Assembly: GCA_903845935.1 (NCBI GenBank)
Contig: CAIMZI010000027.1
Coordinates: 1-64,000, forward strand
DNA: 64,000 nucleotides
Origin: an uncultured beta proteobacterium
GTDB taxonomy: Bacteria; Pseudomonadota; Gammaproteobacteria; Burkholderiales; Burkholderiaceae_C
Direction: 5' to 3'
Below the pieces are notes generated by a model, which was not told the DNA's origin, searched no databases, and saw only the letters and a list, made by a program, of their open reading frames with translations. Position 1 is the stretch's first letter; each line of letters begins with the position of its first letter. The position numbers and the translations under genes are program-made. Positions 1,441-17,179 of the stretch are shown in pieces.

Positions 1441-2471
1441 AGCCTTTACCTTTCCATCGTCCTGTCGGTCGCGGTGTTGGTGTTTTCGCTGGTATTTTTT
1501 CAGCACCGCCAGGAGGAACTGCAGAACGTCACCGCCACAATCTGATCTGGACGAGGCAGCCCGTCAAATCAGCGCCGGGGTGAATTGCAGCACCAGATAC
1601 CAGTGCTCAGCGGCGATGACTTCGGCCGTGTGGCCTGCTCCTTCAACAGCATGGCCGTGGCCCTGCACGAGTCGAGGCGGCAGACGGAAGAATTGTTGCA
1701 GACCCTGGAGACCAAGGTGCAGGAGTGCACCCGAGCGCTGCTGGCCGCGCGCGCCGAGGTGGTGCAGGACACCGTGCGCATGGTGGATAGCCAGGCCTCC
1801 CTGCAAAAGGTACGCATCGTCTGCGAGCTCGACGCCGCCCTGCCGCTGATCTGGGTTGACGCCGATCTGATCAAGCAGGTGGTGATGAACTTGCTGGTCA
1901 ACGCGCAGCAGGCGATTGTTGGCAGCGGCGTGGTGACGGTGCAGACGCGCCTGTGCGCCGATGCCAGCCATCCGCAACAAGGGGCACAACCCGCCATGGT
2001 GGAGCTGACTGTGTCGGACAGCATTCCCGGCATCCACAGCGAAAGCGGCTTGCGCCATTTCGGCAAAAAGCTGCCGCTCTATGTCTCGCTGTTGCAGCGT
2101 TTCGCCCTGGCCTTGCGCATTGCGGTTGAGCAACTGGAGCGGGCCTGCGCGCGGGGTGACTGGGCTCTGGGCCGCCGGGTGATACACACCATCAAGGGCA
2201 ACGCGCTGAATCTGGGTGCCAGTGATTGCGGACAGCTGTGCCATGGCGCGGCGAAGAGGCAGAGGACGCGCTGGTCCGCTTGCAAGCCATGCTGCGCAGC
2301 GGCAATGCCGAGTCCGATGCCTTTTGTGTGAGCAGGGCAAGTCTGCCGCGTCAGTCCCTGGGAGCGACTTTTGACGCGGTGCTGGCCCTCGCCAGGGAAT
2401 ACGAATTCGACCGTGCATTGGAGCTGCTGCAGCAGGTGCAGCCGGACTCCACAGATACGGCACTGCAATAG
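1441..2471 (+). pseudogene. Remnant of hybrid sensor histidine kinase (TM - HAMP - partial HATPase - HPt)
   Basis: Frame 1 reads LYLSIVLSVAVLVFSLVFFQHRQEELQ (TM), in-frame TGA at 1543-1545, then HAMP-like GELQHQIPVLSGDDFGRVACSFNSM, partial HATPase VVMNLLVNAQQAI, HPt-like HTIKGNALNLGA, then a frameshift into ORF 2226-2471; no H-box or G-boxes seen. Confidence 0.75.
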
Positions 2472-2662
2472 CCCGATGCAAGCACCTGTGTCCGGTTTCT
2501 ACAAGCCCCGGGCGGATACAAATCATCAAGAAGCTTGATGTGCGGTAGCTTTTGACGGAATAAATAAAACTATATTTTAATTATATATCTGCAAATGTTG
2601 ATAATTGCGTTGCGAATAAGCCGCATAAATGATAAATGTGGAATAAACTGAGGGTATCGCCA

Positions 2663-2678
2663 AGGCACAGCTTCTGCA
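2663..2678 (+). promoter_or_regulatory. Candidate sigma54 (-24/-12) promoter: aGGCACagcttctGCa
   Basis: GG-N10-GC spacing, close to TGGCACG-N4-TTGCA; upstream of the regulatory half of the gvp locus. Confidence 0.55.
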
Positions 2679-2792
2679 ATAAGCAGTCAGAGTGCCCCGA
2701 TAGGTTGCCGGACAAGACGTGCAGTCTTGGTACAGGGCATTCACTGTCAAAGCGCTGGCTTACGGCGCGATGTTCTCGGGCTATCCCTCACC

Positions 2793-3416
2793 ATGCGTAC
2801 GCTCATCGTCGTGCCAATCATCCATACCGAGCAGGATATGGGTTCCTTGATCACGCAGATCAAACGGGAGTACATAGCCCGTTTCGGCCAGGAGAAATGG
2901 TGCCAGCACCTGCAATCCATTGATGAAGTCTGGCTGGGCATACGCCAGATGATCACCGTGCTGGAGTTGCCCTACCCGTCGGTGCATCTGTATCAGGACG
3001 GTCTGCCTATTTGCGGCAAAGAGGCCGAAATCGTGCGCGATGTGGCCGCACAGGGCAGCACTAACCACCAGTTGCTGGTAGAGCTCATGCAGCGCGGCGC
3101 CACCTTGCAGGGCACAGAAGACGCGCAGTTGCTGCTGCAGGAATACCGCCTTCACCAGGGCGATCTGCGCGAAACCACCCCGGACCACGAGCAGCAACGC
3201 AGCGATCTGAGCCGCAGCCTGTTGCTGCAACGCGACCGCTTTATTGCCCAGCGTATCAACGCAACGCTGCCGGCCGGGCAGATCGGACTGCTATTTTTGG
3301 GATTGGCGCATTCGGTGGAGGCACTGCTTGGCGCAGACATTCTGGTGCGGCATCTGCTGCCGGCATTGCGGGAAAAACAGGGAAAGATAAGAAGCACAAA
3401 TGACGAACACGAATAG
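2793..3416 (+). CDS. Uncharacterised gas-vesicle-locus protein, first gene of regulatory operon
   Basis: ORF with internal start MRTLIVVPIIHTEQDMGS; overlaps the NtrC-type gene by 17 nt, suggesting co-transcription. Confidence 0.6.
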   Translation: MRTLIVVPIIHTEQDMGSLITQIKREYIARFGQEKWCQHLQSIDEVWLGIRQMITVLELPYPSVHLYQDGLPICGKEAEIVRDVAAQGSTNHQLLVELMQRGATLQGTEDAQLLLQEYRLHQGDLRETTPDHEQQRSDLSRSLLLQRDRFIAQRINATLPAGQIGLLFLGLAHSVEALLGADILVRHLLPALREKQGKIRSTNDEHE

Positions 3417-4962
3417 CCTCAAGGGGCCTGCCGGGCCACCCCAAGCGACGGCCCGGGTGCTGGTGGTCGATGACCTTGCCGATGCGCGCTGGATTCTGAC
3501 GAACCTGTTGCGCATCGAAGGATTGGAATATTCCGAGGCCGCAAGTGGTGGGGCCGCGCTGCATTCCATCCGGCAGAATGCGCCCGACCTGGTGCTGCTC
3601 GATGTGGGCCTGCCCGACATGGATGGCTTTGAAGTGCTGGCGCGCATCAAGGCGCTGGACAAGGCGATACCGGTGGTGATGATCACCGCCAACGGCAACA
3701 CGCTGGATGCGGTGCGCGCCATCCGCAATGGCGCTTTTGACTACCTGGCCAAGCCCTTTCACAACCAGGATGTGGCGCTCACCGTGCGCCATGTGCTGGC
3801 GGAAACGGAAGCCCGCCGCCAGGTGCGCCAGATTCACGACGCCTCCGCCCTGCCGGATTCGCTGATGGAAAAAATGGGCCAAAGCGCCGCCGTGCAGGGC
3901 ATACAGACCGAGGTGGACCGGGTCGCCGCCACCAACTTTTCGGTGTTGGTGACGGGCGAATCCGGTACCGGCAAGGAGTTGGTGACCCAGGCCATACACG
4001 CACGCAGCCTGCGGGCCGACAAGCCCTTTGTGGCGCTCGACTGCGGCTCCATTCCGGACAATCTGATCGAGAGCGAACTCTTCGGCCATGAAAAAGGCTC
4101 CTTCACCGGCGCGCACCAGGCCAAGGCCGGTGCCTTTGAATTGGCCGCAGGCGGCACCATTTTTCTGGACGAAATCGGCAACCTGCCGCTGGCCATGCAG
4201 GGCAAGTTGCTGCGGGTGTTGGAAACCAGGCGCATACACCGCATCGGCAGCACCAGGGAGACCGCAGTGGACTTCCGCGTCGTGGCAGCCACCAATGCCA
4301 ATCTGCTGGACATGGTGGAGAAGCAGACCTTTCGTGGCGACCTCTACCACCGCCTGGCCGAGTACACCATCTCCATACCGGCGCTGCAGGATCGCAAGGA
4401 AGATCTGGCCTTTCTGGTCAACCGCTTCCTGCTCCAAACCAACAAGGAATTGGGCAAGCAGGTGCGCGGCCCCAATGCCCCCGCCTGGGAACTGATACGC
4501 GCCTACGGCTGGCCGGGCAATGCGCGCGAACTGCGCAACCAATTGCGCCGTGCGGTGCTGCTGTGCGACGAGCCGGATGGAATGATCACCCCCAGGTATC
4601 TGGGCATGATTAGTGGCACCCAGGTCAGTTGCCTGCAGGCACCGGTTGGGGCGGTGCCCGGTGGCAGCGGCTGCTGGTCTGAGGCCGGGGTCTCGCCGGC
4701 CTGTCTGCTCTGTGATTCAGCCAACGAACGGCTCAAGGCCGGGGCTGACCTGCCGCTCAAGGACCTGACCGCCCGGGTGGTCTCGCAGATTGAACGCTCG
4801 GTGCTGCTCAAGGCGCTGGAGGTGACGCAATGCAACAAGGCGATGGCGGCGCGCATGCTGCACATTGACTACAAGACCCTGCACAAGAAATTGAAAGAGC
4901 ACGCCATTTTCTCCAACCCGACTCTCACGGAGCTGCGCGCGCCGGCTACCGGAGCGCCCTAA
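3400..4962 (+). CDS. NtrC-family sigma54-dependent response regulator
   Basis: REC domain (VLVVDDLADARW, DLVLLDVGLPDMDGFEVL), Walker A GESGTGKE, GSFTGA loop, GGTIFLDEIGNLP, C-terminal Fis-type HTH (NKAMAARMLHIDYKTLHKKLKE). Confidence 0.93.
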   Translation: MTNTNSLKGPAGPPQATARVLVVDDLADARWILTNLLRIEGLEYSEAASGGAALHSIRQNAPDLVLLDVGLPDMDGFEVLARIKALDKAIPVVMITANGNTLDAVRAIRNGAFDYLAKPFHNQDVALTVRHVLAETEARRQVRQIHDASALPDSLMEKMGQSAAVQGIQTEVDRVAATNFSVLVTGESGTGKELVTQAIHARSLRADKPFVALDCGSIPDNLIESELFGHEKGSFTGAHQAKAGAFELAAGGTIFLDEIGNLPLAMQGKLLRVLETRRIHRIGSTRETAVDFRVVAATNANLLDMVEKQTFRGDLYHRLAEYTISIPALQDRKEDLAFLVNRFLLQTNKELGKQVRGPNAPAWELIRAYGWPGNARELRNQLRRAVLLCDEPDGMITPRYLGMISGTQVSCLQAPVGAVPGGSGCWSEAGVSPACLLCDSANERLKAGADLPLKDLTARVVSQIERSVLLKALEVTQCNKAMAARMLHIDYKTLHKKLKEHAIFSNPTLTELRAPATGAP

Positions 4963-5004: not shown

Positions 5005-5613
5005 ATGTCAGACAAGAAACGTAGCGAGGAATTCGCAGTCGGCAAGGAGCGGGTGGAAGAAATCGGACGCCGCCTGGGCACTTTCTTCGGCAAAACGCCA
5101 CCGGCGGCGGGTGCTGGCTTTTTCTCCGGTCTGGGCAGCCTGATCGAGCAGCTGGGTGTGCTCGTGGAGCAGGCGGAAAAGGCCGGCGGTGCGGTGCACA
5201 GTTCCGGCTCCTTCAAGGTCGGCCCGGGTCGGCAGCAAAAGAAAGGCGTGTACGGTTTTACGGTGAAGTCGGCCGTGGGCAACCAACCGCCCCAGGTCGA
5301 GCCCTTTGGCAACATCCGCCAGGATGACGCCGGCAAACTGGTTGCGGTGCACGAGATCCGCGAGCCCATGGTGGATGTGTTTGACGAAGCGGACCGCGTG
5401 CTGATTGTGGCCGAGCTGCCTGGCATGGAAGAGAAGAACCTGCACATTGAACTCAACGGCGACATTCTGCTGATTTCGAGTGAAGAGGTGGAACCCCGGT
5501 ATCGCAAGGAGCTGCTGCTGCCCGGCAGCTTCACCGGCAGCCAGATGACATTCCATTGCCGCAACGGCGTGCTGGAGATCCAGCTCCTGAAAGACGGAGA
5601 ACTGCCATCATGA
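5005..5613 (+). CDS. gvpH: Hsp20/alpha-crystallin family protein, GvpH-like
   Basis: N-terminal LGTFFGK region plus C-terminal alpha-crystallin core (EPMVDVFDEADRVLIVAELPGMEEKNLHIELNGDILLI); located in gvp locus. Confidence 0.75.
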   Translation: MSDKKRSEEFAVGKERVEEIGRRLGTFFGKTPPAAGAGFFSGLGSLIEQLGVLVEQAEKAGGAVHSSGSFKVGPGRQQKKGVYGFTVKSAVGNQPPQVEPFGNIRQDDAGKLVAVHEIREPMVDVFDEADRVLIVAELPGMEEKNLHIELNGDILLISSEEVEPRYRKELLLPGSFTGSQMTFHCRNGVLEIQLLKDGELPS

Positions 5614-7766
5614 AAACCAGCAGCGAGGGCACAGTCAGCCTGAAGGTCGCCGAGGCCCTGAGTAAGGATGTGGGCCGGGCCCTGGCGCGCTTGGATCCGG
5701 CCGACATGCTGCGCCTGGGCGCGCAGATCGGCGACATCGTGGAAATATCCGGTAAGCGGCGCACCGTCTGCAAGCTCATGCCCGCCTTCATGGAGGCGCG
5801 CGGTGTTGCCAGGGTGCAGCTCGACGGCCTGTCGCGCGGCAATGCCGGCGTGGCCCTGGATGAGCCGGTAGTGGTGAAAAAAGTGAATGCGCAGGCTGCG
5901 GTGCGCATCGTGTTGTCGCCCGCCACCAGTGGCCTGTCGGACCGCGATCTGGCCTATATCGGCAACCGCCTCGATGGCTTGCCGGTGCTGGAGGGCGACC
6001 GCATCCGCGGCACCCTTTTCGGCAGCCGCTCGCTGGACTTTCTGGTGCGCGAGACCTCGCCCAAGGGTGCGGTGCTGATCTCGCCCCAAACCCTGCTGTC
6101 GGTGGGGCCTGCCCTGACCGAGGCCAAGGCCCAGGCGGCCGGACGGGCCACGTTTTCGTACGAAGACATTGGCGGCCTGAAGAAAGAGGTGCAGCGCGTG
6201 CGCGAAATCATTGAGCTGCCGCTGCGCTTTCCGGAGGTGTTCACAAGGCTGGGTATCGACGCGCCGAAGGGCGTGCTGCTGTACGGGCCACCGGGATGCG
6301 GCAAGACGCTGATTGCGCGGGCCGTGGCGCATGAAACCGATGTGCGCTTTTTCTCCATCAGCGGCCCGGAGATCATGCAGAAGTTTTACGGCGAGTCCGA
6401 AGGCTTTCTGCGCAAGCTCTTTGACGACGCCACCAAGCAGGCCCCCAGCATCATCTTCATTGACGAGATCGACTCCATCGCCCCCAAGCGCGAAGACCTG
6501 GGCGGCGAGCACCAGGTGGAGCGGCGCGTCGTGGCGCAGTTGCTCAGCCTGATGGATGGCCTCAAGGCCAGGGGCCAGGTCATCGTCATTGCTGCAACCA
6601 ATATTCCCAACGCCATCGATCCGGCCTTGCGCCGCCCGGGCCGCTTTGACCGCGAGGTCGCCATCCCCATTCCGGACCGCCACGGCCGCCAGGAGATTCT
6701 TGAAATCTATACCCGTGGCATGCCACTGGCCCAGGACGTGGACCTGCCCGGCCTGGCCCACGTCACGCATGGCTTTGTAGGCGCTGACCTGGAAGCGCTG
6801 TGCCGCGAGGCTGCCATGATTTGCATCCGACGCATCCTGCCGGAGATCGACTTTGCCCAGGCCACCATTCCCTACGAATCGCTGCAAAAGCTCGAACTCG
6901 GCAAGGACGATTTTGTTGCCGCGCTGCGCGAAGTCGAGCCCTCGGCGCTGCGCGAGGTGTTTGTCGAAGTGCCCGACACGCAATGGGACGATGTGGGTGG
7001 ACTGGAGAGCCCCAAGCGCCTGCTGCGTGAGCTGCTGGAATGGCCCCAGCAGTATGGCGAACTGTTCACGCAAGCCGGCGTCAAACCTTTGAAGGGCGTG
7101 CTGCTGTGCGGTCCCCCGGGCTGCGGCAAGACCCTGCTGGCCAAGGCCGCGGCCAGTGCCACCCAGGTCAACTTCATTTCGGTCAAGGGCCCGGCGCTGA
7201 TGTCCAAGTACATCGGCGAATCCGAGCGCGCCGTGCGCGAGGTCTTCCACAAGGCCAAGCAGGCCTCGCCCTGTCTGGTGTTCTTTGACGAGATCGACGC
7301 ACTGGTGCCCCGGCGCGGCAGTGGTGCGGGGGACGCCGGTGTCAGCGAACGGGTGGTGGGCCAGTTTCTGGCCGAGCTCGATGGCGTGGAGAAGCTGAGC
7401 GGCGTGCTGATTCTGGCTGCCACCAACCGCCCGGACATGGTGGACCCGGCCCTGCTGCGCCCGGGCCGCTTTGATGTGGTGGTGGACATTCCCGTACCCA
7501 CCGAGGCCGAGCGTCTGGCCATCCTGCGCGTGCATGTGCGCAACAAGCCGCTCGCCCAGGATGTGCGCCTGGAGGACATCGCTGCCGCTGCCGTGGGCGC
7601 CACAGGTGCCGATCTGGAGGCCCTGTGCAACCGGGCTGCACTCAACGCCATCCGCGAGCGCATCGCCGCTATGCAGCAAGCAACTGGCAGCGCTGCGGCC
7701 GAAAACGCCCCTTTGGTGATTGGCGCGCGCCATTTCGCCAGCGCCGCACAGGACGGGAAGCCATGA
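5610..7766 (+). CDS. CDC48/VCP-like AAA+ ATPase with two AAA domains
   Basis: CDC48 N-domain-like start; two Walker A (GPPGCGKTLIARA, GPPGCGKTLLAKA), two Walker B (IIFIDEIDSIAPKRE, LVFFDEIDALVPRRG); ATG 5610 overlaps the preceding stop. Confidence 0.92.
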   Translation: MKTSSEGTVSLKVAEALSKDVGRALARLDPADMLRLGAQIGDIVEISGKRRTVCKLMPAFMEARGVARVQLDGLSRGNAGVALDEPVVVKKVNAQAAVRIVLSPATSGLSDRDLAYIGNRLDGLPVLEGDRIRGTLFGSRSLDFLVRETSPKGAVLISPQTLLSVGPALTEAKAQAAGRATFSYEDIGGLKKEVQRVREIIELPLRFPEVFTRLGIDAPKGVLLYGPPGCGKTLIARAVAHETDVRFFSISGPEIMQKFYGESEGFLRKLFDDATKQAPSIIFIDEIDSIAPKREDLGGEHQVERRVVAQLLSLMDGLKARGQVIVIAATNIPNAIDPALRRPGRFDREVAIPIPDRHGRQEILEIYTRGMPLAQDVDLPGLAHVTHGFVGADLEALCREAAMICIRRILPEIDFAQATIPYESLQKLELGKDDFVAALREVEPSALREVFVEVPDTQWDDVGGLESPKRLLRELLEWPQQYGELFTQAGVKPLKGVLLCGPPGCGKTLLAKAAASATQVNFISVKGPALMSKYIGESERAVREVFHKAKQASPCLVFFDEIDALVPRRGSGAGDAGVSERVVGQFLAELDGVEKLSGVLILAATNRPDMVDPALLRPGRFDVVVDIPVPTEAERLAILRVHVRNKPLAQDVRLEDIAAAAVGATGADLEALCNRAALNAIRERIAAMQQATGSAAAENAPLVIGARHFASAAQDGKP

Positions 7767-8617
7767 GCGCCGCCACACCGGATGCGGCGGAGCGCGGCAT
7801 TTACCTCTATTGCCTGGCGCGTCCGCAATGCCTGGCGCTGCTGGCGGGTGCCTCGGCCCCACGCGCGGTGGACTTGCGTTTTCCCGTGACGGCACTGGCC
7901 GATGCCGGGGCGCAGCAGCAGCTGGTGGCGGTAATCAGCGAAGTGGAGATTGCCGACTTTTCCGAGGAGAACCTGCAGACCCTGCTGTGGGTGGGCGAGC
8001 GCGCCGGCCTGCACGAGCTGGTGGTGGCCGGCGTGATGGACAGCTCACCGGTGCTGCCGGTCAAGTTTGGCACGCTCTTTCGCTCCCACGCCAGCCTGGC
8101 CCAATTCATGGTATGCCACAGGGACGCCATAGAGCAGGGCCTGGATCTGCTGCACGACAAGGCCGAATGGAGCGTGAAGGCCTATGTGCTGGACGAGGAG
8201 CTTGCCCGCGCCCGCTTCGCAGAGGAAGACGCCGGTGTCGCCCTGCGCCGCTCCACCCTGTCGGATTCGCCAGGCGCGCGCTACCTGCAGCAAAAGCAAC
8301 TCGATGCGATGGTGGAGAAGGCGTTGGATGCCGGTGTGGCGCGCACCGGCGCCGCGCTACAGCAGGCCTTGCAAGCGCAGGCTGCGGCGTCCACCACCCT
8401 GCGCTGCCATTCCAGCACGATCACCGGGCGCGCAGAGCGCTTGGTGTTCAACGCCAGCTTTCTGCTGGCGCCGCAAGCGCTGCCGGCGTTCAACCAAACC
8501 CTGGCCGAACAGCAGGCCTTGTGCGAGGCCATCGGCCTGGGCCTGGAACTGCGCGGACCCTGGCCACCCTACAACTTCTGCCCTGACTTGAGCGGGGGCA
8601 CACAGGCTGAACCCTGA
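7763..8617 (+). CDS. gvpF: Gas vesicle protein GvpF/GvpL family
   Basis: GIYLYCLARPQ start, VLPVKFGTLF motif, C-terminal LELRGPWPPYNFCP; start overlaps upstream stop. Confidence 0.85.
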   Translation: MSAATPDAAERGIYLYCLARPQCLALLAGASAPRAVDLRFPVTALADAGAQQQLVAVISEVEIADFSEENLQTLLWVGERAGLHELVVAGVMDSSPVLPVKFGTLFRSHASLAQFMVCHRDAIEQGLDLLHDKAEWSVKAYVLDEELARARFAEEDAGVALRRSTLSDSPGARYLQQKQLDAMVEKALDAGVARTGAALQQALQAQAAASTTLRCHSSTITGRAERLVFNASFLLAPQALPAFNQTLAEQQALCEAIGLGLELRGPWPPYNFCPDLSGGTQAEP

Positions 8618-10533
8618 TGCCAAAAACAAGCACTGCAGAGCATTTCGCACTGGCGGCACTGGACACCGTTTCGTCAAGCCTGGCGTTTCTGGATGAACGC
8701 GGGGGCATTCTCTCGACCAATATGCCTTGGCAGGAATTTGGCCGTGCCAATGGCGGCTCGGCGGCGCAAGCGGCAGGGGCGGAAAACTACCTGACTATTT
8801 GCGACCAGGCCACAGGCGCCGGTTCCGAGGGAGCGCAGGCGATGGCGCAGGGCATTCGCGCGGTAATTCAGGGCCGACAGGGCAGGTTCGAACTCGAATA
8901 CCCCTGCAATTCGCCGACTGAAAAGCGCTTCTTTATTGCCCGTGTCAGCCGCTTTGAGTTCGAAAACCAGGTTCGCGTGGTCGTCACCCATGAAGACATC
9001 TCCCGGCGCCAGATGCTGGAAGAGGCCTTGGCAGCCAAGTCGCAAGCCATGGAGCAGTGCGCTGCCGAACTGGTGATTGCCAATGCCTTTACGGACAAAT
9101 ACCTGTACCGCATGCTGCTGGGCGCCATTCCGTTTTCGCTGCTGTTTATTGACACCAGCTTGCGCGTGCTGTCGGCCAACCGGAACTTTCTGGAAAAGTC
9201 GCACCGCACCGAGGAGAACACCCTGGGCAAGCGCATACGCGACATCTTCCCGGAAGTGATCATGGAGTTCACGCAGCTGGAAAACAAGGTGCGCACGGTG
9301 ATCGAAACCGGCATTACGCTGCCGGGCTCGCACATGACTTACCGGGCGCCGGGCATTCCGGTGCGGGTTTATTTTTATACCGTCATTCCGATCAAGTCGA
9401 GCAACGTTGTGGTGCGTGCCATGCTGGTGATGGACGATGTGACGGAGAAACTGGCCCTGAGCGCCAAGGCCAGCCTGGCCGAGCGCCATCTGGCCAGCGT
9501 GGTGGAAAGCGCCAATGACCTGGTCATCTCCACCGACCGGCACGGGCGCATCACCAGTTGGAACAAGGCGGCCGAGCGCATCACCGGCTTTAGCAACGCG
9601 GATGTGTCGGGACGCCTGCTCACCAACCTGTGCGAAGTGGTGGAAGACCGCAACATGGCTAGCTTGATTCAGCAGCAGGTCAATGGCGGTGCGGTGGAAC
9701 TGTGCGAGCGCAATCTGGTGGCCCGCTCGGGCACGCTGATTCCGGTGGATTGGTCTTTCTCGCCCATTCCGGACGAAAACGGCAAGGCCATTGGCGTGGT
9801 GGTGGTGGGGCGCGACCTGTCGGAGCGCCGCGCCCTGGAGCAGCATCTCTACCAGACCGAAAAGCTCGCCGCACTGGGCGTGATGGCCGGCGGCATTGCG
9901 CATGAGTTGCGCAACCCGTTGTCGGTCAGCTTTTCTGCGGCGCAGTTCCTGTTGGATCCTCCGGACAAGCCGGAGTTTCACCAGGAATGCGTGAAGAAAA
10001 TCCTGGAAGGCATTGAACGCTCGTCGGTGATCATCGAGAACCTGCTGCGTTTTGCCAGGCCTTCATCGAGCAACCAGGCCGAGTCCCTCAATCTGGTGGA
10101 CCTGGTGCGCGAGACCGTCAATGTGCTCACGCCCCAGGCCAAGGTGCTCAAGATCAACCTGGTGCAGGAATATGCAGAGCCCGTCGTACCCCTTGTGGGC
10201 AACGCCAATCTGTTGCAACAGGTGATCATGAACCTGGTGCTCAATGCCTACCACGCCATGCCGCAGGGTGGCGATATCCACCTCGCGGTGCGGCGCGAGG
10301 CCGACATGGCGCTGGTCAGCGTGCGCGACGCCGGTTGCGGCATTGCGCCGGCCGACATGGGACGCTTGTTTGATCCCTTCTTCACCACCAGGCCATCAGG
10401 GCAGGGCACCGGCCTGGGCCTGTCGATTTGCCACACCATCGTCAAGCAGCACCGCGGCACGCTGGTGGTGGAGAGCAACCTGGGCCAGGGCAGCCTGTTT
10501 GTCGTGCGCCTGCCGCTGGCGCTGGAGACCTGA
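8617..10533 (+). CDS. PAS-domain sensor histidine kinase
   Basis: Several PAS regions (LVISTDRHGRITSWNKAAERITGFSNADVSGR), H-box GGIAHELRNPLS, N-box QVIMNLVLNAYHAMP, G-box GTGLGLSICHTIVKQHRG. Confidence 0.93.
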   Translation: MPKTSTAEHFALAALDTVSSSLAFLDERGGILSTNMPWQEFGRANGGSAAQAAGAENYLTICDQATGAGSEGAQAMAQGIRAVIQGRQGRFELEYPCNSPTEKRFFIARVSRFEFENQVRVVVTHEDISRRQMLEEALAAKSQAMEQCAAELVIANAFTDKYLYRMLLGAIPFSLLFIDTSLRVLSANRNFLEKSHRTEENTLGKRIRDIFPEVIMEFTQLENKVRTVIETGITLPGSHMTYRAPGIPVRVYFYTVIPIKSSNVVVRAMLVMDDVTEKLALSAKASLAERHLASVVESANDLVISTDRHGRITSWNKAAERITGFSNADVSGRLLTNLCEVVEDRNMASLIQQQVNGGAVELCERNLVARSGTLIPVDWSFSPIPDENGKAIGVVVVGRDLSERRALEQHLYQTEKLAALGVMAGGIAHELRNPLSVSFSAAQFLLDPPDKPEFHQECVKKILEGIERSSVIIENLLRFARPSSSNQAESLNLVDLVRETVNVLTPQAKVLKINLVQEYAEPVVPLVGNANLLQQVIMNLVLNAYHAMPQGGDIHLAVRREADMALVSVRDAGCGIAPADMGRLFDPFFTTRPSGQGTGLGLSICHTIVKQHRGTLVVESNLGQGSLFVVRLPLALET

Positions 10534-10946
10534 TGGCAGAAGGCGTCAAGGTGTTGGTGGTGGATGACGAGGCCGGTGTGCGCTGGGCCATGGAGATGAT
10601 CCTGCTGCGCAATGGCTTCTTCGTGTCCAGCGTGGGCAGCGGCGAAGAGGCGCTCGCCTGGCTGGGCCGCAACAGCTGCCAAGTCATTCTGATGGATGCC
10701 AAGCTCGGAGACATCGAAGGGGTCGAGCTGGCCCGCAAAATCCGCAAGCAAGCGCTGAGCACGGCGCCGGTAATTCTGGTCTCGGGCTATTTTTATAAAG
10801 ATGACAGCACCGTGCAGCGCAGCCTGGTGGCAGGCGACATTGCGGCCTTTGTCACCAAGCCTTTTCGCCATGAAGACATCCTCAAATCCATCGCTTGCGT
10901 GCTGATGGCAGGAGCGTCCTCCCTAACTATGGCGCCGACTCCCTAG
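10533..10946 (+). CDS. Single-domain response regulator (receiver)
   Basis: VKVLVVDDEAGVRWAMEMIL, QVILMDAKLGDIEGVELA, VTKPF; start overlaps kinase stop. Confidence 0.9.
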   Translation: MAEGVKVLVVDDEAGVRWAMEMILLRNGFFVSSVGSGEEALAWLGRNSCQVILMDAKLGDIEGVELARKIRKQALSTAPVILVSGYFYKDDSTVQRSLVAGDIAAFVTKPFRHEDILKSIACVLMAGASSLTMAPTP

Positions 10947-11041
10947 TCTGTTTGTGCGCTCGGACACCGTTCTGCGCGATTGAGAATACATCTGTTGTTT
11001 TTAAGTGTTTGCAGTCGCTCTTTAGTTGCTATTTACCCACG

Positions 11042-11056
11042 GAAACAGATCGTTTC
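11042..11056. promoter_or_regulatory. Inverted repeat GAAAC-AGATC-GTTTC upstream of the gvpA sigma54 element
   Basis: Perfect 5-bp arms with 5-nt spacer, 16 bp upstream of the -24 element. Confidence 0.35.
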
Positions 11057-11072
11057 AAACCTCCTCAATACT

Positions 11073-11088
11073 TGGCACGGGCTATGCA
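11073..11088 (+). promoter_or_regulatory. Candidate sigma54 promoter of gvpA: TGGCACGggctaTGCA
   Basis: Near-consensus TGGCACG-N4-TTGCA with exact GG-N10-GC spacing, about 85 bp upstream of gvpA. Confidence 0.8.
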
Positions 11089-11173
11089 ATCACTACAAGT
11101 GACGAAGGGCTTAACCCCGTACTTCGTATAGAAAAATACGGTAACCAGGGGTCAATATGTTAGGAGAAAGATT

Positions 11174-11392
11174 ATGGCAAAAGTACAGAAATCAACAGAC
11201 TCTTCGAGTTTGGCTGAAGTCGTCGACCGCATCCTGGACAAGGGCATCGTGATTGATGCCTGGGTCAAGGTTTCGCTGGTTGGTATTGAGCTGTTGTCGA
11301 TCGAAGCACGCGTGGTGATCGCGTCGGTCGAAACCTACCTGAAGTATGCAGAGGCAATCGGCCTCACATCCAGCGCAGCAGCTCCGGCCTAA
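11174..11392 (+). CDS. gvpA: Gas vesicle structural protein GvpA
   Basis: [55 protein letters not shown], the canonical GvpA core; AGGAGA RBS. Confidence 0.98.
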
Positions 11393-11418
11393 AAGACCGA
11401 AGTGAGTTGGCTTGTCTG

Positions 11419-11442
11419 CCGGGAAGGTTTACCCCTTTCCGG
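11419..11442 (+). promoter_or_regulatory. gvpA-gvpC intergenic RNA hairpin
   Basis: ccgggaagg-tttacc-cctttccgg, 9-bp stem with one G-U pair; no clear U-tract. Confidence 0.5.
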
Positions 11443-11554
11443 TGGATATTTCCACATATCGAATTCGCGCGCAGAGTGGCGTATTGCAGCACGAATCAGC
11501 AAATCATTCTGCCGCAGAGGGGCTGCACTGCCAGCCCGACAGGAGAGTATAAAA

Positions 11555-12391
11555 ATGACCAGTTTGCAAAACCAGGTGGCGACATTGATGCAAGGAATTG
11601 CCAGTGTGGCCCGCGAAAGAGTCAGCGCCGTGCGTGCCATCAAGGCGGACACCGCCAGCATGCTGCAGGCCTACGACCAGGAGCGAGGCGATATGGCGAG
11701 CGCCTTGCGCGCCGGGCTGGAAGCGGACCGCATGAGTCGCTCCGCCGAAGTGCTGGAAATTCGCGACAACGCGAACCAGATGAGCCAGGACTTCCGCTTG
11801 GACCATGCGCAGATGGGCGCCGCCCTGCGCCAGAGCCTGCTCGAATCCCGTGAGTCCGTCGTCAGCGCGGTTCAGTCTCTGTGTATCGAGTTCACCGAGG
11901 AGCGCCTGCAGTTTGCCAAAGCCCACCGCAAGATGGCCAAGGCACAAGGCAAGGCGCTGGCAAAGGACCGGCTAGAGCGCTCGGATGCGGTTGCCGCCAT
12001 GATGCAATCCTTCAACAAGGCCCATCGCCAGATGGCCGGCACACTGCGCGGCAACCTGACCCAGTCGCGCCACCATCGCTCGCATGCCTTGCAGGAGTTG
12101 ATGCGCGGCTTTCATCCCGCACGTGCAAGCCGGCGTGGCACAGCAGTGCCGGCCCGCAAAAGCGCACAACACACCGCCTTTGCCTGGCCCGTAGCCGCAC
12201 CGGTTGCCGCCGCAAAGGCCGCCGTACTGGCTCTGCCGATGGCAGCGGTTCTGCCGCAAGAACCCGTGGCAGTCGCTGCACCCGAGCCAGCACCGGAGCC
12301 CGTGTCGGAACCGGTACATGTACTGCAAGCGGAAGTCATTGAGGGTACGCGGCACTTCAAGCCCACGCCGGGCAAGGGCAAGAAAAAGTAG
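11555..12391 (+). CDS. gvpC: GvpC-like repeat protein
   Basis: Start MTSLQNQ with AGGAGAG RBS; repeat units YDQERGDMASALRAGLEADR / FRLDHAQMGAALRQSLLESR / FAKAHRKMAKAQGKALAKDR / FNKAHRQMAGTLRGNLTQSR with periods 40, 40, 33 aa; immediately follows gvpA. Confidence 0.72.
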   Translation: MTSLQNQVATLMQGIASVARERVSAVRAIKADTASMLQAYDQERGDMASALRAGLEADRMSRSAEVLEIRDNANQMSQDFRLDHAQMGAALRQSLLESRESVVSAVQSLCIEFTEERLQFAKAHRKMAKAQGKALAKDRLERSDAVAAMMQSFNKAHRQMAGTLRGNLTQSRHHRSHALQELMRGFHPARASRRGTAVPARKSAQHTAFAWPVAAPVAAAKAAVLALPMAAVLPQEPVAVAAPEPAPEPVSEPVHVLQAEVIEGTRHFKPTPGKGKKK

Positions 12392-14873: not shown

Positions 14874-15245
14874 ATGCTGATTCTTGACGACCTGTTGCTC
14901 TCGCCCCTGATGTGGATCTTCAGGGAGATCAATGACACGGTACAAAAGGAGCAGGCTGGAGAGGCCGAGTCGGTGACCCGCTCGCTTAGCGAGCTGTACA
15001 TGCAGCTCGAAACCGGCAACATCACCGAGGCCGAGTTCGAGGCCCGGGAGACGATGCTGCTGGACCGGCTGGACGCCATCCGCGAGCGCAACGAGGGCCT
15101 GGCCGAGGAAGACGGCGCAGCGGAGGATGGTGACGAACAAGACGAAGAAGACGAAGAAGACGAGGAAGACGAGGAAGAGGAAGAGGAAGAGGAAGAGGTC
15201 CGGGTTGAAGGGGCGCCCGTCGGCCCTGTGAAAGACCGGACGTGA
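14874..15245 (+). CDS. gvpG: Gas vesicle protein GvpG with acidic C-terminal tail
   Basis: MLILDDLLLSPLMWIFREINDTVQKE and GNITEAEFEARETMLLDRLDAI are GvpG hallmarks. Confidence 0.9.
   Translation: MLILDDLLLSPLMWIFREINDTVQKEQAGEAESVTRSLSELYMQLETGNITEAEFEARETMLLDRLDAIRERNEGLAEEDGAAEDGDEQDEEDEEDEEDEEEEEEEEEVRVEGAPVGPVKDRT
15132..15197 (+). repeat. GAA/GAC/GAG trinucleotide low-complexity tract in gvpG
   Basis: gacgaacaagacgaagaagacgaagaagacgaggaagac...gaggaagagg encodes a D/E-only tail. Confidence 0.85.
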
Positions 15246-17179
15246 GCACCCTTGCGGCACCGGACTTCCTGTTGGATGCGGAGCTGCGTCTGCTCTTCTT
15301 CGGCGGCAAGGGTGGCGTTGGCAAAACCACCTGCGCCAGTGCCTGCGCCCTGCAACTCGCCCACAGCCATCCGGAACGTCTGTATGTACTGGTCTCCACG
15401 GATCCCGCGCATTCCCTGCTGGATTGCTTTTCCGGTGCGCTACCACCGGCTAATCTGACGCTCAGGGAAATTGATCCGCAGGCCTGTCTGCTGCGCTTCA
15501 AGGCCCTGCATGAAGACCATTTGCGCACCATTGCCCTGCGCGGCACATTTCTGGACGCGTCCGACATCGGACAGCTGGTGGACCTGTCCATGCCCGGCAT
15601 GGACGAGATGATGGCGCTGCTGGAAATAGTGGCCTGGGTCAAGGAGGACCGCTATGCCTGCATCGTGGTCGATACTGCCCCGGCCGGCCACACCCTGCGC
15701 ATGCTGGAACTGCCGGCAATGATGGTCCAGTGGATTGCGGCACTGGACGCCATGCTGGCCAAACACCGCTACCTGGCACGCGTGTACCGGGGCAGCTACC
15801 GCAGCGATGCGGTGGACGACTATCTGCAAGACGCCGCTGCCGATTTGACCGGCTTGCAAGCCCTGCTGGCTGATGCCGCACGCTGCCGGTTTGTCCCTGT
15901 GATGCTGGCCGAGGAATTGAGCCTCCATATCACCCGCGGTCTGGTTGCCGAACTGGAGCGGTTGGGGCTGTGCGTGCGGGACATCGTGGTCAACCGCCTG
16001 CTGGCAGAAGCTGCGGCCTGCCCTGCTTGCCTGGCCAGGGCGCGGCAACAAAGCCTGGGTATCGCACAGGTGCTGCAGGCCTTTGCGCAGCACAGGCTCT
16101 GGGGCTTGCCGCTGGTGTATGAAGAGCCCACCGGGCTGGAGGCATTGGCGCAGTTGTGGGCACAGGTGCGACCCTTGTCACATGCTGTCTGGACGACTGT
16201 CGGCATGGCCGCAAGTCCTGCCGCAACACCGCAGCCCTTCGTCATCCACGCACCGGCGCTGCCACCGGAATGCACCACGCTGCTGATGTTTGCCGGCAAG
16301 GGCGGCGTGGGTAAAACTACCCTGGCCTGTGCCACGGCGCTGCGCCTGGCCGAGGAGCGCCCCGGCAAAGAGGTGCTGCTTTTCTCGATTGATCCGGCCC
16401 ATTCGCTGGCTGCCTGTCTGGAACTTCCGGTCGGCCCGCATGAAGTGCGGGTTGCTGCCGGACTGAGCGCGATTGAGCTGGACGCACAGGCCGAATACGC
16501 CGTCCTCAAGCAGGAATATGCCAGCGAGTTGAAGGGCGTTTTCAAGCGCGAGTCGGCGCAGTCCGGCGTCGGCCTTGCGTTTGACCGGGAAGTCATGGAG
16601 CGCATGCTCGATGTGGCGCCGCTGGGGCTCGATGAGGTGCTGGCGATCACCCGCATCGTGGACTTGATGGACCGCAGGCGCTACGACACCTTTGTGCTCG
16701 ACACCGCGCCCACCGGCCATTTGCTGCGTTTCCTCGAAATGCCGGAGCTCATTGACCAGTGGCTCAAGACCTTCTTTGCGCTGTTTCTGAAGTACCGCCA
16801 GCTGTTCTGGTTTGAACGCATCACCCAGACCATGGTCACGCTGTCGCGCCGCATCAAGCGGCTGCGGCGCATGCTGGTCGACGCACAGCAGGCCGCGCTG
16901 GTGCTGGTCAGCATTCCGACGGAGATGGCCTATGCCGAAAGCGCCGACCTGTTGGCAGCCTGCGCGCGCATGGGCATTGCCGTACCCCTGCAGTTCATCA
17001 ACCTGGTGGACCGCCCATCGCACTGCCCGGTGTGCGCCCTGGTCCGGCGTAGCCAGGAACCGGTCCTGGAAAAGATGGCGGCCACTGCGGCGGGACGTCC
17101 GGTGGCGCAGGTCTTCCGCCAGGACGAACCCCGTGGCGTAGAACGGCTGCGGGCCCTGGGCCGCGAACTCTACGCCTAG
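15242..17179 (+). CDS. Tandem ArsA/Get3-like ATPase of gas vesicle locus
   Basis: Two deviant Walker A motifs (FFGGKGGVGKTTCAS, MFAGKGGVGKTTLACA), two DTAPTGH-type motifs (DTAPAGHTLRMLELP, DTAPTGHLLRFLEMP), a CPxC motif in each half. Confidence 0.92.
   Translation: MSTLAAPDFLLDAELRLLFFGGKGGVGKTTCASACALQLAHSHPERLYVLVSTDPAHSLLDCFSGALPPANLTLREIDPQACLLRFKALHEDHLRTIALRGTFLDASDIGQLVDLSMPGMDEMMALLEIVAWVKEDRYACIVVDTAPAGHTLRMLELPAMMVQWIAALDAMLAKHRYLARVYRGSYRSDAVDDYLQDAAADLTGLQALLADAARCRFVPVMLAEELSLHITRGLVAELERLGLCVRDIVVNRLLAEAAACPACLARARQQSLGIAQVLQAFAQHRLWGLPLVYEEPTGLEALAQLWAQVRPLSHAVWTTVGMAASPAATPQPFVIHAPALPPECTTLLMFAGKGGVGKTTLACATALRLAEERPGKEVLLFSIDPAHSLAACLELPVGPHEVRVAAGLSAIELDAQAEYAVLKQEYASELKGVFKRESAQSGVGLAFDREVMERMLDVAPLGLDEVLAITRIVDLMDRRRYDTFVLDTAPTGHLLRFLEMPELIDQWLKTFFALFLKYRQLFWFERITQTMVTLSRRIKRLRRMLVDAQQAALVLVSIPTEMAYAESADLLAACARMGIAVPLQFINLVDRPSHCPVCALVRRSQEPVLEKMAATAAGRPVAQVFRQDEPRGVERLRALGRELYA

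Follow-up and report, generated by a model that had tools for sequence, protein, structure and literature searches.

The window, by which we mean the whole 64-kb stretch of DNA analysed here, carries a gas-vesicle gene cluster in which the gvr operon and gvpA follow one another on the + strand. The operon is headed by a conserved gene with no Pfam match (2793-3416), whose orthologues precede gvrA in relatives. It continues with gvrA itself (3400-4962), followed by genes for an HSP20-like protein (5005-5613; the gvpH equivalent, assigned by synteny and by PF17886/PF00011 matches at cut-off level), a CDC48-type AAA ATPase (5556-7766; PF00004 and PF02359; the coordinates are those of the longest open reading frame and the true start may be later), a GvpF/GvpL protein (7625-8617; PF06386), a PAS histidine kinase in a gvrB-like position (8617-10533; PF08448, PF00512 and PF02518) and a single-domain receiver in a gvrC-like position (10428-10946; PF00072). 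The next gene, at 11174-11392 and also on the + strand, is gvpA, encoding the main gas vesicle protein (PF00741, E 2e-17); the identical protein is found in genome G214. The locus therefore holds gvrA together with equivalents of gvpH, gvpF, gvrB and gvrC, with the extra gene at 2793-3416 in front; the equivalence with the Serratia genes is one of position and domain (gene order in PMC4982088), not of protein sequence. As a side observation, relatives of the protein encoded at 2793-3416 adjoin HSP20 and CDC48 genes in the gvp clusters of Methylocella and Methylosinus.

The product of gvrA is an NtrC-family sigma54 activator, as the first-pass annotation had recognized. It consists of a receiver domain, a sigma54-interaction AAA+ domain and a Fis-type helix-turn-helix (HTH) domain, and PF00072, PF00158 and PF02954 were all matched. 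Its sigma54-contact loop reads GSFTGA, the Asp region is conserved, and the recognition helix, DYKT..KLK, is nearly invariant across the compared genomes. The genome also encodes RpoN, with a single PF04552 match (E 2.2e-64). Searching the genome contigs with GvrA returned generic NtrC relatives only.

A -24/-12 box, TGGCACGGGCTATGCA, is located at 11073-11088 on the + strand, 85 nt upstream of the gvpA ATG (11174). The GG at 11074-11075 and the GC at 11086-11087 are separated by 10 nt, giving the exact GG-N10-GC spacing in a TGGCAC/TTGC context, and 11 of the 12 positions specified in TGGCACGNNNNTTGCW agree. A matrix scan covering every position on either strand of the window ranked this as the top sigma54 site, and its score was reached by 0.1 hits per shuffle in a control of 20 shuffles of the whole window; the matrix weights were approximate, while the 12-position consensus count is independent of them. 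Genome-wide, the looser pattern TGGCACGNNNNNTGCW has 16 exact matches versus five for its reversed control. Taken alone, the gvpA box is thus just moderately rare, and the case for it is made by position and conservation. Neither a sigma70-like promoter nor a terminator-like site on the gvpA strand was found at 10500-11600. Sigma54 promoter geometry would place the transcription start 12 nt past the GC element, at 11097-11099 (+).

Conservation was assessed on gvpA upstream regions from plasmids and from genomes at successive ranks around this one (its family, order, class and phylum). The box is kept at the equivalent place in 24 distinct gvpA promoters while their flanks diverge, and the promoters bearing it span Burkholderiales, other Gammaproteobacteria and alphaproteobacterial plasmids. 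It scores 12/12 in G214 and G534, 11/12 in G1514 and 10/12 in G801; on plasmids, the scores are 10/12 in Methylocella and Methylosinus and 11/12 in Thiodictyon. Several members of clade g740 have boxes of 10-11/12, and a box is present in every member of genus g123 for which upstream DNA was available. Of the 23 genomes searched, 17 yielded a GvrA orthologue (E < 1e-100). Five of the other six are those with a box-less gvpA, and the last is an assembly of 82% completeness. The gvpA loci on Spartinivicinus and Octadecabacter plasmids (L118 and L120) likewise have no box and no GvrA nearby. Gene order is also shared: gvrA, HSP20, CDC48, GvpF/L, kinase and receiver genes stand ahead of gvpA in G214, and the same set minus the receiver does so in G801. 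The near-consensus box with exact spacing that had been called in the first pass can therefore be retained and, given its conservation and its co-occurrence with the activator, we consider it real and functionally credible as a sigma54 promoter.

The site from which the activator might act is a second conserved element, which emerged from an alignment of 13 gvpA upstream regions (the window and 12 from genus g123; L151, which would have been the 14th, is truncated by its contig end). In this alignment a palindrome with the consensus CTATGG-N8-CCATAG is kept, while the stretch containing the dyad at 11042-11056, to which we return below, has completely diverged. The window copy, CTATGGCGCCGACTCCCTAG, lies at 10927-10946 (+), has one mismatch, extends over the final codons of the receiver gene ahead of gvpA, and is the only match with two or fewer mismatches in the window. 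It is situated about 110 bases farther upstream than the dyad and falls just outside the interval 10947-11070 that had been proposed for footprinting. The palindrome was spotted by inspecting the alignment and then tested on an overlapping promoter set, although some members of that set (G801, Thiodictyon and clade g740) stand far from the sequences in which the motif was first noticed. With the search limited to 300 nt from the box, a copy with at most one mismatch was present in 16 of the 24 distinct sigma54-type gvpA promoters (0.01 expected from shuffles). Between 73 and 273 nt separate it from the box, depending on the promoter, and often two copies stand in tandem at 20 bp; this fits an enhancer rather than a core promoter element. 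No clear copy was found in the Methylocella and Methylosinus plasmids, although the box and GvrA are present there; G534, which also has both, shows a weak copy only, and the copy in G1514 has a 9-nt spacer. A pattern search of the genome gave ten one-mismatch palindromes versus three for the control, so the motif alone is not specific. As judged from sequence, the palindrome at 10927-10946 is likely to be the GvrA enhancer and a better candidate than the dyad. No GvrA binding sequence was found in the open-licence papers searched, and the CTATGG-N8-CCATAG operator motif appears to be undescribed in them.

Other elements of these promoters were considered as well. The string CTGTTGTTTTTAA, common to the window and G214, and the CAACA direct repeats of clade g740 had been candidates for activator sites and were dropped once the palindrome was found. 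In seven promoters the best match to an IHF-like element precedes the box by 51-55 nt; the best match in the window (11/13) is at another position, with a shuffle P of 0.72. Clade g740 also has extra gvpA copies (L134, L135, L142, L144 and L145), which carry the palindrome 340-380 nt upstream of the ATG; in printouts of these copies we noted by eye a box-like TGGCATG-N4-TTGTT, with GT in place of GC at -12.

Whether the cluster forms a closed regulatory loop, as the first-pass annotation had proposed, depends on the region ahead of the gvr operon. Within 1600-3400 of the window we found no palindrome, even allowing three mismatches, and the sole box upstream of the operon is the degenerate AGGCACAGCTTCTGCA at 2663-2678 (+), which agrees at 9/12 positions and is probably nonfunctional. 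In this genome the activator's operon thus does not appear to bear the activator's own predicted site and promoter, and the proposed loop is not supported. The arrangement differs in G1602, G1609 and G1611, where a 10-11/12 box precedes the first gene of the gvr operon (L184, L183 and L185, respectively) by 69 nt. Farther upstream are two palindrome-like sites with 2-3 mismatches, whose centres lie 106-107 and 126-127 nt from that box. This suggests that, among the relatives compared, positive feedback on the gvr operon may operate in these three only.

Taking these observations together, we consider it highly probable that RpoN and GvrA, the latter acting at the palindrome at 10927-10946, drive gvpA, with the gvr operon standing outside the same control. 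RNA polymerase carrying sigma54 would transcribe the gvpA operon from 11073-11088, starting near 11099. The activity of GvrA would be controlled by its own receiver domain and probably also by the neighbouring PAS kinase and receiver. Once active, it would bind the palindrome, about 160 bp upstream, loop to the polymerase, and use ATP hydrolysis, via its GSFTGA loop, to open the promoter. As the gvr operon would not share this control here, the logic would be feed-forward, running from signal to GvrA to gvpA, rather than that of a closed loop.

Classical sigma54 promoters, exemplified by glnA and NtrC, combine a GG-N10-GC box with palindromic sites roughly 100-200 bp upstream and an activator of the NtrC family. 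The gvpA promoter resembles them in its box, its upstream palindrome and its NtrC-family activator, and differs from glnA/NtrC in the sequence of the predicted site, here CTATGG-N8-CCATAG; relative to the classical promoters, the IHF-like element is found in some relatives and is weak in the window. The closest known system is that of Serratia sp. ATCC 39006, in which the gvpA1 start has been mapped with -12/-24 sites and gvpA1 expression is lowered in gvrA, gvrB and gvrC mutants (PMC4982088). In an rpoN mutant of the same strain, gas vesicles and gvpA1-gvpY transcription are lost and gvrA-gvrC are unchanged (PMC11778176). Sigma54/GvrA control of gvpA is already established in that organism, and our core finding may best be read as a further case. 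The two clusters share the sigma54 -24/-12 box upstream of gvpA and an NtrC-type GvrA whose operon, which gvrA heads in Serratia, also includes gvpH, gvpF genes, gvrB and gvrC (here, their equivalents). Nevertheless, there are two differences. The first is one of layout, as in the window the gvr operon precedes gvpA in the same orientation; an inverted operon order has been reported for Psychromonas ingrahamii and Desulfomonile tiedjei (PMC4982088). The second is that a GvrA site is predicted here, whereas none was found in the two Serratia papers (PMC4982088 and PMC11778176).

Among the alternatives, the one that survives best is that the box is used by another NtrC-family protein, such as NtrC, and that the palindrome belongs to a different regulator. 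The genome does encode several further proteins with sigma54-activator domains, and one-mismatch palindromes exist elsewhere in it. However, the box and GvrA co-occur across clades, GvrA is encoded in the same cluster as gvpA, the palindrome also stands before the gvr operons of three relatives, and the Serratia GvrA orthologue (assigned by position) controls gvpA1 (PMC4982088), and we regard this explanation as unlikely. Read-through from the gvr operon as the main source of gvpA transcripts, with a secondary role for the sigma54 box, would make the conserved, positioned box and enhancer pointless and would sit poorly with a gvpA product required in great excess. Such read-through is absent between the two Serratia operons (PMC4982088), though the operon order differs there. 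Even with the gvr operon directly upstream on the same strand, a gap of 227 nt and no terminator-like site on that strand between the receiver gene and gvpA, we consider this explanation improbable, and clearly more so than a different activator.

A third explanation is the one originally put forward, in which the activator docks at the GAAAC-AGATC-GTTTC dyad, GAAACAGATCGTTTC. The dyad is indeed present beside the box, at 11042-11056. Chance alone would give 1.4 perfect 5-bp dyads with loops of up to 10 nt in the 126 nt that precede the box, where one was observed. With up to one mismatch allowed, GAAAC-N5-GTTTC was found in none of the other 23 distinct sigma54-type gvpA promoters; in the close alignment of genus g123 with the window, the dyad sits in a fully diverged stretch. 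Moreover, its centre lies about 50 bp from the predicted start, and sigma54 activator sites are usually farther away than this. Owing to its chance-level frequency and its absence from the other promoters, we rejected GAAAC-N5-GTTTC as an activator operator and judge the dyad to be outside the system; binding there is very improbable. What probably does hold of the earlier proposal is the role it gave to the protein encoded at 3400-4962, as the co-occurrence of box and activator and the Serratia precedent both argue for GvrA driving gvpA. Finally, that the box is a functionless chance match, for which the 16 looser-pattern matches in the genome against five for the control might be cited, has a negligible probability given its same-place conservation in 24 promoters with diverging flanks.

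Returning to control by GvrA at the palindrome, we think it probable, with somewhat less confidence than for the window itself, that CTATGG-N8-CCATAG, single or as a 20-bp tandem 73-273 nt from the box, is the GvrA operator of proteobacterial gas-vesicle clusters, and that the related sites before gvr in G1602, G1609 and G1611 turn feed-forward into a positive-feedback switch. GvrA/sigma54 control of gas vesicles was previously known from one tractable enterobacterium. The present comparison would extend the switch to Burkholderiales, other Gammaproteobacteria and alphaproteobacterial plasmids, and it names a predicted 20-bp operator that is directly mutable. Some lineages seem to have added positive feedback; this one seems not to have done so. 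A defined operator and promoter would furthermore aid the expression of gas-vesicle clusters in new hosts.

A leader hairpin, CGAAG-N14-CTTCG, lies at 11103-11126 (+), at the 5' end of the mRNA as predicted, and hardly varies between the window and genus g123. These sequences share CGAAGG[GA]...CC[CT]CGTACTTCG, beginning at about +5 of the predicted transcript, and both arms of the stem are invariant. In most other clades the sequence differs but folds into a hairpin at this position (z of -3.6 to -1.1 in G214, G801, Methylocella, Methylosinus and g740); the fold z is unconvincing for G534, G1514 and Thiodictyon and for the window taken by itself, whose leader fold is not unusual (z -0.94). 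Support for the hairpin thus comes from its recurrence across clades and not from the fold score of the window. Comparing the window with Methylocella by eye, two stem pairs have apparently changed on both sides (ACGAAG/CTTCGT versus CCGGA/TCCGG). The hairpin has no Rfam match; a reasonable guess is that it protects or stabilises the abundant gvpA mRNA. At the other end of the gene, an inverted repeat without a T run, CCGGGAAGG-TTTACC-CCTTTCCGG, was seen by eye at 11418-11450, after gvpA, and might set the ratio of gvpA to the downstream genes. Farther along in the gvp operon, 15242-17179 encodes a 645-aa ATPase of the ArsA type that has two ATPase regions; its gene stands between gvpG and that of a TPR protein and is conserved in G214.
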